Below, one piece after another: positions 6,731-64,000 of a DNA stretch of 64,000 nucleotides. The position numbers and the translations under genes are program-made. Positions within the stretch are counted from its first letter, which is position 1. Each line of letters begins with the position of its first letter. The notes beneath the pieces were generated by a model. That model was given only the letters and a program-made list of their open reading frames with translations, was not told where the DNA came from and ran no database searches. The DNA is from Paraeggerthella hongkongensis (GTDB lineage: Bacteria; Actinomycetota; Coriobacteriia; Coriobacteriales; Eggerthellaceae): the NCBI RefSeq assembly GCF_003340345.1, contig NZ_PPTQ01000004.1, positions 62,001 through 126,000 of the forward strand, read 5' to 3'.

Positions 6731-7696
6731 GTGGGACTATTCGATAGTCTTAAACGAGACAAAAAGCCAGCCGAGACTGTCAAGCGTGACGAAACCATAC
6801 TTGTTGAGGATGATTTGTCGATCGATCATATAGAAGTGGTTGAGCGAGAGGTTCCCGCTAAAGTGGAGGAACCTGCTCCGCCGAAGCCTATCAAATCGTT
6901 CAAGGATAAGGCTCCGGTGAAGCATGTGGTTGGTCAAACCAAGGTTATGGCCATTATCAACCAAAAAGGCGGCGTCGGTAAATCTACGACGGCGATCAAC
7001 CTTTCAGCTGCTCTAGGAGAGCTTGGCAAGCAGGTTTTGCTCGTTGATTTGGACCCTCAAGGGAATTCCTCAAGCGGCTTGGGCATCGAGAAGAGCCAGG
7101 TGTCCAACTGTATTTACGATGTCCTGCTCAATGATGTGCCTATCGAGAACGTGATCATTCCCGATGTATGCGACGGTCTTGACGTCATTCCAGCTACCAT
7201 CAACCTTGCTGGCGCTGAAGTCGAGCTTGTCTCCGAGATGGCACGAGAGAACCGTTTGAAAGACTCCGTTGGAAGTCTGCGCGGCAAGTACGACTACGTT
7301 TTCATAGATTGTCCGCCTTCCCTTGGGCTTCTTACCGTGAACGCATTAGTAGCTGCGGACAAGCTGCTTATTCCTATCCAGTGTGAGTTCTATGCACTGG
7401 AAGGTGTGACAAAACTTCTTGATTCAATGAAACGTGTCAAAACTCGCCTTAATCCTACTTTGGATATCTTCGGCGTGCTTTTGACTATGTACGATGGACG
7501 TACCACGCTCTCGCGGCAGGTGGTAAGCGAGGTGCGCGGTTATTTTGGAAAAACTGTCTTTACGACATTGATCCCTCGTACCGTTAAGTTGTCCGAGGCA
7601 CCAAGCTTCGGGCAGCCTATTACGCAGTACGACCCGTCGGGAAAAGGTGCTCAGTCGTATGTGGAGCTTGCAAAGGAAGTGATTCAGCGTGGCTAA
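6731..7696 (+). CDS. parA: Chromosome-partitioning ATPase ParA (Soj)
   Basis: A MinD/ParA-type ATPase that, with ParB-parS, moves replicated origins. It is 321 residues from a GTG at 6731 preceded by AAAGGGGG; an upstream ATG would add 29 unlikely residues. The deviant Walker A KGGVGKST is at 79-86, followed by DLDPQGNSSSGLG and the FIDCPPSLGLL switch. The ~70-residue charged N-terminal extension before the ATPase is longer than in short ParA proteins; its role is unknown. It overlaps parB by 8 nt. Confidence 0.97.
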   Translation: MGLFDSLKRDKKPAETVKRDETILVEDDLSIDHIEVVEREVPAKVEEPAPPKPIKSFKDKAPVKHVVGQTKVMAIINQKGGVGKSTTAINLSAALGELGKQVLLVDLDPQGNSSSGLGIEKSQVSNCIYDVLLNDVPIENVIIPDVCDGLDVIPATINLAGAEVELVSEMARENRLKDSVGSLRGKYDYVFIDCPPSLGLLTVNALVAADKLLIPIQCEFYALEGVTKLLDSMKRVKTRLNPTLDIFGVLLTMYDGRTTLSRQVVSEVRGYFGKTVFTTLIPRTVKLSEAPSFGQPITQYDPSGKGAQSYVELAKEVIQRG

Positions 7697-60260: not shown

Positions 60261-60530
60261 ATGAAGTGCGTAGTTTCCGTTTTGGGCAAGGATCGCAGCG
60301 GCATCGTTGCAAAGGTTTCGATGGCCCTTGCCGAGTGCGGCGCCAACATCGACGATATCAGCCAGACCATTCTGGACGACATCTTCTCGATGACGATGCT
60401 CGTCACGCTTGATACTAAGGCCGCCGATTTCAACACCGTGCAGGAAAAGCTCGAGGCGGTCGGCGAAGACTTGGGCGTGCAGATCATCATTCAGCGAGAA
60501 GACGTGTTTCAGTTCATGTATTATGTGTAG
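60261..60530 (+). CDS. ACT-domain protein (UPF0237)
   Basis: A single 89-residue ACT domain: MKCVVSVLGKDRSGIVAKVS then ANIDDISQTILDDIFSM, matching UPF0237, proposed to sense amino acids. In many Gram-positives and Actinobacteria its gene is followed directly by a UPF0210 (DUF711) gene; here a RIT element begins at the same position, and its terminal repeat covers the last four codons (TAT TAT GTG TAG). The length matches the family, so the protein appears intact. Confidence 0.88.
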   Translation: MKCVVSVLGKDRSGIVAKVSMALAECGANIDDISQTILDDIFSMTMLVTLDTKAADFNTVQEKLEAVGEDLGVQIIIQREDVFQFMYYV

Positions 60531-60613
60531 CCTTTTGCAAGGCTGCATTATGTGAAGCTGGCGGCGTTTTGCCAGATGAGGCTGAATCTCATCCTATACC
60601 AGCTCCACATAAT
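60519..60613. repeat. Left terminal repeat structure of the RIT element
   Basis: Outer repeat 60519-60544, then an internal dyad ATTATGTGAAGCTGG (60547-60561) paired with CCAGCTCCACATAAT (60599-60613), 14 of 15 positions complementary. The outer repeat overlaps the ACT-gene stop. Confidence 0.8.
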
Positions 60614-60633
60614 ATTTTTCGGCCTCCTGCCGT

Positions 60634-61665
60634 CTAGACGACTGTTTTGAGAAACTCGATGAAGTCTTCCTCGGCAGGAGGTTTATAATGGGCTTTCGCT
60701 AGCACCTTGGCGTTTGCGCGCTCGATGGCCTCCTGCTTGTCTTTATCTAGGACTTGCGCGTAGATTTCGGTTGTCGAAATGAACTCATGGCCGAGCAGAT
60801 CCCGAATTTTTTCCAAAGGGACGCCTTCTGCGAGCCAGTGGGTGGCACGGCTATGGCGCATCGTATGGGGTGTGATATGCCATGATGGAAACAATTCAGG
60901 ATGTTCGTTGCGAGCTGTATCCACATATTTGGACAGGATGTAGGCAACTCCTCCTCTGGTCAAGCGTTCGCCCTTTTGGTTTGTGAAGAGTGGATCGCTT
61001 GGTACGTAGCTTTTGTCGCGGCGCTTCAGATATTCCCTAAGATGCGAGGTGGTGAGCGCTGAAATCCCCACAATTCGGCTCTTCCTGCCTTTGCCTACGA
61101 GGTAGACCGTGCTGCTTTCGGAAGGATTTCGCAGAGCGAGGGAGTTGGTGCTCAAATTGATCAGCTCGCCTACGCGGCAGCCTGAATCGTAGAGAAGCTG
61201 CAGTAGGGCTAGATCCCGCAGGCTTCCCTCTGCCGCTTCTTCGAGGATGGCCTTCACCGCCTCGCTCGAAAGGTATTTCAGGTGGCCCTCGCTGCCTTTC
61301 TTGGTGTGAATCGACAGGATGCCGCGACACTCTGTCAGCATTTCAGGCTCTTCATATTGAAGGTAGTCAGCGAACGATCTCAGTGCGGCGAGCCGTGCGT
61401 TTCGGGTGGCAGTCGAGTTCTCCCTTTCGTCTTCGAGCCAAAGCAAGAAGTCGCCCACCGCCTCAGCGGTAAGGTCATGCAACGTCATTTTATTAGCGGA
61501 TATGCCTCGCTCGTCTCGCATGTAGACAAGGAAAAGGGAGATGGAATCTCGATACGCCGCGACGGTGTTGGCGCTCCTGCTGCGCTGCTTCGGCATCCAC
61601 GAGCGCAGGAAAACCGTCACATGTTTCTGGAAGTTCTTGTTGCTTGCCAACTGCCTAGATGGCAT
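60634..61665 (-). CDS. ritC: RIT tyrosine recombinase, third gene (RitC)
   Basis: 343 residues from ATG 61665, which follows GGAGGTGG and overlaps the preceding gene by 11 nt. N-terminal SAM-like core-binding domain (SANTVAAYRDSISLFLVYM), then catalytic residues in SGCRVGELI, HTMRHSRATHW, LGHEFISTTEIYAQ, giving R, HxxR, H and nucleophile Y. Moves the element together with its two partners. Confidence 0.92.
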   Translation of the reverse strand: MPSRQLASNKNFQKHVTVFLRSWMPKQRSRSANTVAAYRDSISLFLVYMRDERGISANKMTLHDLTAEAVGDFLLWLEDERENSTATRNARLAALRSFADYLQYEEPEMLTECRGILSIHTKKGSEGHLKYLSSEAVKAILEEAAEGSLRDLALLQLLYDSGCRVGELINLSTNSLALRNPSESSTVYLVGKGRKSRIVGISALTTSHLREYLKRRDKSYVPSDPLFTNQKGERLTRGGVAYILSKYVDTARNEHPELFPSWHITPHTMRHSRATHWLAEGVPLEKIRDLLGHEFISTTEIYAQVLDKDKQEAIERANAKVLAKAHYKPPAEEDFIEFLKTVV

Positions 61666-62659
61666 CGTAATCCACCTCCGGGAAAATGCTCTCATCGAAT
61701 GCGGCCATGGTGTTGACGATCCGACGTCGGCTCTCCTCGGTGAGATGGAGGTAGCGCATCGTGTCTTGAACGCTGGAATGCCCCAGGTAGCTTGCGAGCA
61801 CGGGGAGGAGCGCGTACGGATCTTCACCTCGCTCCGCTGCGGCATCGAGCGCGTGGCAGGCGAACGTGTGGCGCAGGTCATGGACGCGCGGGAGGTCTCC
61901 TTTGACGGTAGACAATTTCAAAGTCGCATAGGCTTCTTTAAACACCTTGCGCACTGCTTGCTCCGTATAAGGGACAATGCGTTTTTCCGGGGAGGGAAAT
62001 ATGACGCGGTCAGCCGGCCCTTCGGCAAACCGCATGTTTTCCCAATACCGCGCGAACTCGGCTGCAAGCGACTTGGACATGGGGACGAAGCGGTTCTTCT
62101 CCCCCTTCGCGTGCCGAATCGCAAGGACGTCATCACGCATATCGACGTCGCAGGCAGCGAGGTTGAGGGCTTCGCCCAGCCGCAGGCCGCATCCGTAAAG
62201 GGTTCGGAACAGCATGGGGACGACGAGATGGCGATCGGGATAGCGCTTGTCATAGGGTATGGCGTCGAATATGCGGGCCAATTCCTGAATTTCGGCATGC
62301 GTGAAGATGTAGGGTTGGAAATCCGACGAGCATTTTGGCAGCATGTTGTTGGGGAGGACGTACGCGTCGTACCCGTTGGATTGCAGGAAGAGTCCGAAAT
62401 TCCTGATCATGCTCGCACGGTTGTGCCTCGTGCCCATGGCTTCTTCTCCGCGGGGCTCGATCCATTGGAGGACGGCTTCGCGGGGAAGGACGCTATCGTC
62501 TCCAGCCGGTCTGTATGCCTCCGCCGCTTCTGAAATGCTTCGGAGCATGTAGATCTTCCCTACGTCCACTTTGTAGCCCATGGACCGCTTGTGGTTGACG
62601 AAGTCGATGCACAGCTCCGCATTCGGGCCGTTGATTTCGATTCGGTCTATAGACGGCAT
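61655..62659 (-). CDS. ritB: RIT tyrosine recombinase, second gene (RitB)
   Basis: 334 residues from ATG 62659, overlapping the first gene's stop by 13 nt. Catalytic residues: GCGLRLGEAL, HDLRHTFACH, LGHSSVQDTMRYLH. All catalytic positions present. An upstream in-frame ATG 68 codons earlier lies inside the first gene and is not used. Confidence 0.92.
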   Translation of the reverse strand: MPSIDRIEINGPNAELCIDFVNHKRSMGYKVDVGKIYMLRSISEAAEAYRPAGDDSVLPREAVLQWIEPRGEEAMGTRHNRASMIRNFGLFLQSNGYDAYVLPNNMLPKCSSDFQPYIFTHAEIQELARIFDAIPYDKRYPDRHLVVPMLFRTLYGCGLRLGEALNLAACDVDMRDDVLAIRHAKGEKNRFVPMSKSLAAEFARYWENMRFAEGPADRVIFPSPEKRIVPYTEQAVRKVFKEAYATLKLSTVKGDLPRVHDLRHTFACHALDAAAERGEDPYALLPVLASYLGHSSVQDTMRYLHLTEESRRRIVNTMAAFDESIFPEVDYDAI

Positions 62660-63822
62660 GGCGGCACCTCCAGGGCGACCGAGCGTAAGCGCTCGATGTC
62701 GATATCGAGATAGGGCCGTGCAGAGTCGATCTGCGATTGCCCGAGGACCGAACCGATGATTTTGTAGTCGGTTCCGCCGTCCATCATCGTCGTGGCGAGT
62801 GAGTGGCGTATGGCGTGCGATCCGTGGCGGCGGCCTACCACGTCGATTCCGGCTCGAGCGCAAAGTTCGGTGATTTTCGAATAGATAGCGCCGGCGCTGT
62901 TATAAGGTCGATATGGCTTTACTTCTGTTAGGAACACCGTGTCGAACCCCGATTCGGGGCGTTCGTTCTTTAAGTAATCTAGCAAAGCCATCTTCACGGG
63001 GTGAGTCATTAAAACGATCTGCGTCTCCCCGCTTTTGCTTTGCGCGAAGCGGATCTCGTCGATTGCCCAGTCGATGTCATTGAGCGAAAGGCGTATGACG
63101 TCTTTCGCTCGGAACCCATAGGTGACGAACAATAGAACCAGGGCCGTTTTCATCTTCGGGCGGCGAGGGCTTGCGGCTGCGGCATCCAAAAGGCATGCCA
63201 GCTCTTCGGCTGTGAACCAAGAAGGCAGTTGGGGAGCGGCTTTTGCGATTCGGCCTGTCAGCGCGTTTTCAGGCGAGTGACCCAGTTCGCGTACGGTGGA
63301 CACGTATGCAAGGAAATCACGAAGCCGAGTTACGGTGACGGAAACCGATTTGGGCGCCTGGCTCTCCCTTGCGTCGAGAAGGAAAGCCGTTACGTGCTCC
63401 GGCAAAAGCTCTTCGATACATCCGATTTTGCCATCAATGAAATACAGGAATTTTCGCGCGGCGTTCAAGCGGCAGCGCTTCGTGTCTTTCTTGAGCCCCC
63501 GCTCGGTAAGATGATCGCGATACCCTTCGACAAGGTAAACAAAGCGGGCCGGGCAAGGATAGCGATAGTCTGCCCTGCAGTAAAACATGCCTATCCGGTC
63601 GAACTCGACAAGCCGACGGATGGGTAAACATAAGGAAGAGGGGGCATTGGCGAGCGCGCGTGTTGCTAACTTCTCTGAATACTGGTCGTCGCCCGAATCT
63701 TTGGCGAAACGCTCCAGGTACGCCCATCCCTTCACATACCGCTCGATGATGCTTGGAGAGTAGCCTTCGGCCTCCATATAGCGACGAGCTCTGCCGACAA
63801 TCTCACTTACGGTCTGTCCCAT
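62647..63822 (-). CDS. ritA: RIT tyrosine recombinase, first gene (RitA)
   Basis: 391 residues from ATG 63822 after AAAGGA. Longest of the three, with an extended N-terminal region (VGRARRYMEAEGYSPSIIER). Catalytic residues: YGFRAKDVI, HAIRHSLATT, then LGQSQIDSARPYLD, in which the usual LGH histidine is Gln, while the Tyr is kept. First gene of the trio; translation of the next starts within it. Confidence 0.9.
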   Translation of the reverse strand: MGQTVSEIVGRARRYMEAEGYSPSIIERYVKGWAYLERFAKDSGDDQYSEKLATRALANAPSSLCLPIRRLVEFDRIGMFYCRADYRYPCPARFVYLVEGYRDHLTERGLKKDTKRCRLNAARKFLYFIDGKIGCIEELLPEHVTAFLLDARESQAPKSVSVTVTRLRDFLAYVSTVRELGHSPENALTGRIAKAAPQLPSWFTAEELACLLDAAAASPRRPKMKTALVLLFVTYGFRAKDVIRLSLNDIDWAIDEIRFAQSKSGETQIVLMTHPVKMALLDYLKNERPESGFDTVFLTEVKPYRPYNSAGAIYSKITELCARAGIDVVGRRHGSHAIRHSLATTMMDGGTDYKIIGSVLGQSQIDSARPYLDIDIERLRSVALEVPPCRL

Positions 63823-63871
63823 AAACCATCCTTTCACGTTGGGAATAGAGACAGACCTATTGTGGCGATAA

Positions 63872-63941
63872 ATTATGTGAAGTAGTAATGTCCTATAAAG
63901 AAACCTTGAACAGCTAAGACTTGCAATCACTAAACATAATA
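63872..63941. repeat. Right terminal repeat structure of the RIT element
   Basis: Internal ATTATGTGAAG at 63872-63882 and outer repeat 63917-63941 (ending ACATAATA). Complementary in pattern to the left end, but the left end has about 25 nt more between the motifs. Confidence 0.75.
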
Positions 63942-64000
63942 TTTACTTCTTGAGCACTTTGCATAAACGGTTTTATGGACAGCTAGTGATAACATGTACA
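63942..64000. other. Right flank of the RIT element
   Basis: 59 nt with no gene start visible. The UPF0210 gene expected after the ACT gene may begin just beyond the window. Confidence 0.4.

Follow-up and report, generated by a model that had tools for sequence, protein, structure and literature searches.

A RIT element at the 3' end of an ACT-domain gene in Paraeggerthella hongkongensis, with a left end that supplies the last codons and stop

The ACT gene, the recombinase genes and the sites at the element ends

The window analysed is a stretch of 64,000 nt from the genome of Paraeggerthella hongkongensis (G000), bases 62001–126000 of contig C34 (NZ_PPTQ01000004.1). Close to its right edge lies an 89-residue ACT-domain gene (60261–60530, forward strand) of NCBIfam family PRK00194.1 (113.8 bits, cut-off 74), the final codons and stop of which come from the adjoining element. 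Beyond it, the reverse strand carries three genes for tyrosine recombinases: ritC (60634–61665, 343 residues), ritB (61655–62659, 334 residues) and ritA (62647–63822, 391 residues). The overlap of ritB is 11 nt with ritC and 13 nt with ritA. All three products have a Phage_integrase domain, and a structure search retrieved Xer-like recombinases and integrases.

The order A-B-C, the adjacency with short overlaps and the length (3,472 bp between the two copies of the core described below) are those of RIT elements, which appear in the available parts of PMC3414803, PMC8138268 and PMC10214605 as overlapping ritABC genes in about 3.5 kb, with a palindrome and end repeats as here. The published overlaps are 4–8 nt (PMC3414803, same portion), versus 13 and 11 nt in the window. 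RitA is described with two N-terminal helical bundles (PMC8138268, in part). In an AlphaFold model of the window RitA (mean pLDDT 78, pTM 0.48), helices 5–77 and 92–178 likewise form two four-helix bundles preceding the catalytic domain, consistent with two sequential core-binding domains. A further trait of RITs is an extra C-terminal helix in RitC. RitB and RitC contain the HxxR, LGH and Tyr motifs, with unchanged C-terminal motifs. In RitA the LGH motif is LGQ; His is found in all 27 other aligned sequences covering the position, so that this copy may be impaired. PADLOC gave no match.

Sites of 11 bp are arrayed at both ends. At the left end, the terminal site TTATGTGTAGC (60521–60531, forward) is followed at 27 bp by a second site TTATGTGAAGC (60548–60558, forward) and by an inverted subterminal site TTATGTGGAGC (60602–60612, reverse). 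The right end comprises an inverted subterminal site TTATGTGAAGT (63873–63883, forward), a third site TTATGTTTAGT, also given as ACTAAACATAA (63929–63939, reverse), a second site TTATGCAAAGT (63956–63966, reverse) and, 26 bp from the latter, the terminal site TTATCACTAGC (63982–63992, reverse). A looser form of the site pattern has one extra match, within ritB at 61970. RITs are defined by a terminal inverted repeat of 28–34 bp with a palindrome; the window element has a palindrome at the left end and the site arrays at both, and a repeat search detected no long inverted repeat between the two. The motif TTATGYGAAGY occurs 32 times in 14,215 bp of ends from 15 RITs, where 200 first-order resamplings gave 0.03 on average; it had been derived from the very ends on which it was counted. 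It was not found in the ends of five of the 15, including the G106 element presented below.

A hairpin, GTGTAGCCTT-TTGC-AAGGCTGCAT (60525–60548, forward), overlaps the ACT stop codon with a free energy of −13.3 kcal/mol (z −2.1; 7 of 200 shuffles equally good). The G106 element has a weaker one at the matching place (z −1.1, 30 of 200 shuffles). Scores from a promoter and terminator scan were near those of shuffled sequences.

A displaced gene ending, an empty site and a second element at the same codons

The ancestral ending of the ACT gene survives intact, displaced to the right side of the element, which entered two codons ahead of the stop, is flanked by two cores and encodes a replacement ending in its left end; the empty site is present in G001, the sole other member of the genus among the 138 genomes of the family-level searches. 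The final codons in the window are TTC ATG TAT TAT GTG TAG, the gene with the element in place ending as TATTATGTGTAG. The left core CATGTA (attL core, 60515–60520, forward) takes in the ATG TA of these codons. The left terminal site TTATGTGTAGC continues the frame from the TA of the core as T-TAT-GTG-TAG, completing Tyr87 and adding Tyr88, Val89 and the stop. The protein therefore ends in Met-Tyr-Tyr-Val, where that of G001 ends in Met-Tyr-Lys-Ile, and both have 89 residues. The right core CATGTA (attR core, 63993–63998, forward) is followed by CAAGATTTAG, which runs past the window edge; there the contig reads ...GTGATAA CATGTA CAAGATTTAG. CAAGATTTAG encodes Lys-Ile-stop and is the sequence that follows CATGTA in the ACT genes of relatives. 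The original ending CATGTACAAGATTTAG is thus found at window positions 63993–64008, reaching beyond the edge, 3.48 kb from its former place. The core extent was set at the point where the two flanks stop matching; it is exactly 6 bp, as the neighbouring bases differ on either side.

In G001, the uninterrupted ACT gene ends as TTCATGTACAAGATTTAA and is followed by corA. The BLAST alignment with G001 left of the element ends at 60520, the last base of CATGTA (78% identity), and resumes 226 bases past the first base of the second core (86% identity). With this empty site as reference, Lys-Ile-stop was replaced by Tyr-Val-stop through the left end TTATGTGTAG without change of length. A degenerate 15-mer of such ACT endings has a single match in the P. 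hongkongensis genome, exactly at the displaced place. A control with the pattern written backwards likewise has one match here, and matches in 17 of the 138 genomes overall, so that the lone match is weak by itself; it counts because it sits right after the right terminal site and the second CATGTA, and because of the empty site in G001.

The original prediction, made from the sequence alone, that a three-recombinase RIT element had entered the ACT gene at its 3' end is borne out by the displaced ending and by the empty site, which it had proposed to seek in relatives. It was also right that the left terminal site coincides with TAT TAT GTG TAG and that a normal length and a working stop are retained. 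It had placed the element at 60519–63941; the position stands but both ends move, to 60521 and 63992, the sequence at 63929–63939 being subterminal. The suggestion that the element separated the ACT gene from a UPF0210 partner, to be found just after 64000, had to be abandoned: the only PF05167 match of the genome lies on another contig (C45), and the gene beyond the element is corA, which is also the next gene in G001. Among the 113 loci compared, one (L027, in G008) has UPF0210 immediately after ACT.

These 113 loci, 111 of which contain the ACT gene, come from 109 genomes: eight are from the order and 101 are among the 130 family genomes in which ACT was matched. G000 and G001 are each counted twice in the rows. 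The target NATGTA is conserved in 105 of the 111 rows, most often as CATGTA (73 rows). The protein endings are MYKI in 70 rows and MYKV in nine, the others being rarer; Met-Tyr-Tyr-Val occurs in two rows, both from G000. Rit-like recombinase genes were detected downstream of ACT (tblastn, E 1e-6, at least 1 kb covered in 104 of the 109 genomes) in two genomes, G000 and G106.

G106 is a metagenome-assembled genome of another genus (estimated contamination 5%). It contains a related RIT at the same ACT codons, with the same layout of the left end and the same spacing of right-end sites. The spacing from terminal to second site is 27 bp on the left and 26 bp on the right in both elements, and 21 of 38 positions are identical between the two left ends (P about 0.00015, 20,000 mononucleotide shuffles). 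The sites of the G106 element read TTATCTGGAGT. Its Rit proteins are 37–47% identical to those of the window; five of the 138 family genomes, G000 included, have a RitA match at E 1e-40 or better, and G106 is the nearest. The two genomes pair in the trees of RitA (100/99) and RitB (99/98), both on long branches in the former.

At the left junction in G106, the core GATGTA is followed by TAAGGTGTAGTC..., which gives Lys-Val-stop. In G013, of the same genus, the ACT gene ends as GATGTACAAAATCTAG, with 272 bp covered downstream. GATGTA is found at positions 6966 and 18981 of the G106 contig, 12,015 bp apart. The second copy is preceded by AAGATAA and, from the core on, 89 bp are identical to the left junction (189 bp at 93%), so the left end of a second element follows. 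The 12-kb island thus delimited contains ritABC and genes for a molybdopterin oxidoreductase, an FAD-binding flavoprotein and a LysR regulator, which suggests that RITs can carry cargo. The second unit, ended by the contig edge, contains a TetR regulator and part of another molybdopterin oxidoreductase. A displaced native ACT ending was not found on this contig. Upstream of ritA in the island (L040:7365–7808), and in its open frame, there is a small cysteine-rich frame (MACPECGAACGYVGHG...).

Proposed integration at the core and relation to known systems

With a probability of roughly 0.9, the RIT integrated by site-specific recombination at the 6-bp core within the Met-Tyr codons close to the ACT 3' end. 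The core is CATGTA in the window and GATGTA in G106. RitA, RitB and RitC would bind the repeated 11-bp sites (TTATGYGAAGY-like) arrayed at each end, and strand exchange by these proteins would take place within the core. By this scheme the window RIT is presumably a mobile element. In both elements GTGTAG lies within the left terminal site, so that a site for recombination also serves as last codon and stop. Since this site became GTGTAG, the element would restore the open gene and escape the penalty of disrupting it. The same att system would, in G106, carry cargo and accrete in tandem. A broader proposal is made tentatively, as one that may well prove wrong: a RIT lineage specialised on one host gene end, with a left site doubling as the last ACT codons, stop and hairpin, and an att system that also moves redox-gene cargo, which accumulates as tandem arrays behind the ACT gene of gut Eggerthellaceae.

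Strand-biased copy-out/copy-in has been proposed for SE elements and Tn554, and integration here could have followed this route instead of simple cut-and-paste, with a right core derived from the donor. This is a serious possibility, though not the favoured one. In the available part of PMC10214605, SEs and Tn554 have a 6-bp spacer and a donor-derived 6-bp footprint, and the core here is also 6 bp. The two cores agree within G000 and within G106, which fits either route; this agreement says little, as the site most often reads CATGTA.

The stop-bearing left end may also be devoid of adaptive value, GTGTAG being a chance in-frame variant of a putative binding site. There are only two such elements, and their other sites vary as well. 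Moreover, the ACT genes of G107 and G108 end in GTGTAG with no Rit gene found, so that GTGTAG may simply copy a natural ACT ending. However, despite 37–47% protein identity, it is the terminal left site that contains GTGTAG in both elements, the second (TTATGTGAAGC in the window; TTATCTGGAGT in G106) reading GTGAAG or CTGGAG, and both elements supply two in-frame codons and TAG. An origin by chance is considered somewhat unlikely. That Tyr-Val-stop is natural ACT variation which the element adjoins by accident is highly improbable: ACT endings do vary, and that of G107 is GTGTAG without a downstream Rit gene, but an intact MYKI-stop lies beyond the right end beside a copy of the core, and the flanks are collinear with G001.

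The target of Tn554 lies in radC. SE elements and Tn554 share with the window element a 6-bp core, several recombinases and a fixed chromosomal target (PMC10214605, in part), but their gene sets differ: these comprise one long and one ordinary recombinase with TnpC/Srap, whereas the recombinases of the window have 391, 334 and 343 residues. GInt islands, encoding ginABCD, also have three recombinases. In the part of PMC5385486 consulted, six GInts lie in an ssb gene, attL overlaps the gene end and the product is unaltered; staggered cuts of 6 nt are inferred, and the cargo is 2.5–70 kb. Unlike GInts, which have a fourth essential gene, ginD (PMC5385486, same portion), the window element has no room for it: 113 bp separate ritC from the left end (60521–60633) and 170 bp lie upstream of ritA, neither with a frame of at least 60 codons. 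The window element also differs in having no cargo, in changing the last two residues from KI to YV and in having an ACT gene as target. RITs are thus a known kind of element, and GInts are a precedent for an attL overlapping a gene end.

RITs are present in many bacteria, and their target specificity, empty site and movement are listed as not tested in Table 1 of PMC10214605, as far as its accessible part goes. In that of PMC3414803, a transposase gene and a radC gene are named as locations of RITs, without an attachment site. Unlike these published RITs, as partly consulted, that of the window displays its core, both junctions and the empty site, and completes the target gene with its left end. 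The literature searched, itself partly accessible and lacking most subscription papers, yielded no RIT whose attachment site is resolved together with its empty site and a displaced gene end, and no work linking ACT domain, attB, integrase and genomic island. The core, junctions, empty site and displaced ending allow the design of an exact PCR and of a plasmid-integration assay. They also illustrate a way for a mobile element to insert in a conserved gene and leave it unbroken, through a recombination site readable as the ending of the gene.

Occurrence of related elements and recombinase trios

A scan of genome contigs with a single protein confirmed no RitA relative; a search with a two-row alignment gave 16 loci in genome contigs and none confirmed in viral contigs. 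The element DNA had no match among plasmids. Protein matches numbered 588 in plasmid and 15 in phage records, all below 60% identity and at most 33.8% among the matches listed. The ACT gene was not found at the other RIT loci compared, several of which are short, and the preference of RITs for ACT is based on two elements, those of G000 and G106. At one RIT locus (L043, G134:C829), the two flanks resemble, by eye, inverted and similar copies of one sequence, from an assembly artefact or an inversion.

The right-end pattern was found in P. hongkongensis and G108 only, among 138 family and 396 class genomes, and in no viral contig. G108 has an exact 26-bp copy of the window right end with the core, followed by CAAGATCTAG (L120, G108:C1:936207–936232), with a flavoprotein-like frame nearby. 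An ACT island in G108 was considered but not supported, the right-end copy being on C1 and the ACT gene on C3, with no Rit match in the stretches examined. The GTGTAG endings of G107 and G108 were likewise dropped as scars of an element, being indistinguishable from native variation. After the ACT gene of G108 (L171, on C3), about 11.9 kb precede the next stretch in common with the sister species G107, where this distance is about 0.14 kb.

A distant clade of recombinase trios is inserted in other RIT genes, exactly at codons of catalytic motifs. No interrupted RIT gene was found within about 1.5 kb upstream of the trios of L178, L179 and L184, and L177 covers about 0.1 kb there. In L054 (G387:C36, identical to L175), the trio is inserted at LR|H in ritC, which resumes beyond the insert. 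In L066 (RAYY01000073.1), it lies at LR|H in ritB, and the right flank resumes with LRHS, with a weak RitC match (E 0.29). In L176 (G359:C76), an insertion at LG|H in a ritC is seen from one side. This clade is possibly an element homing to the active-site DNA of recombinase genes.
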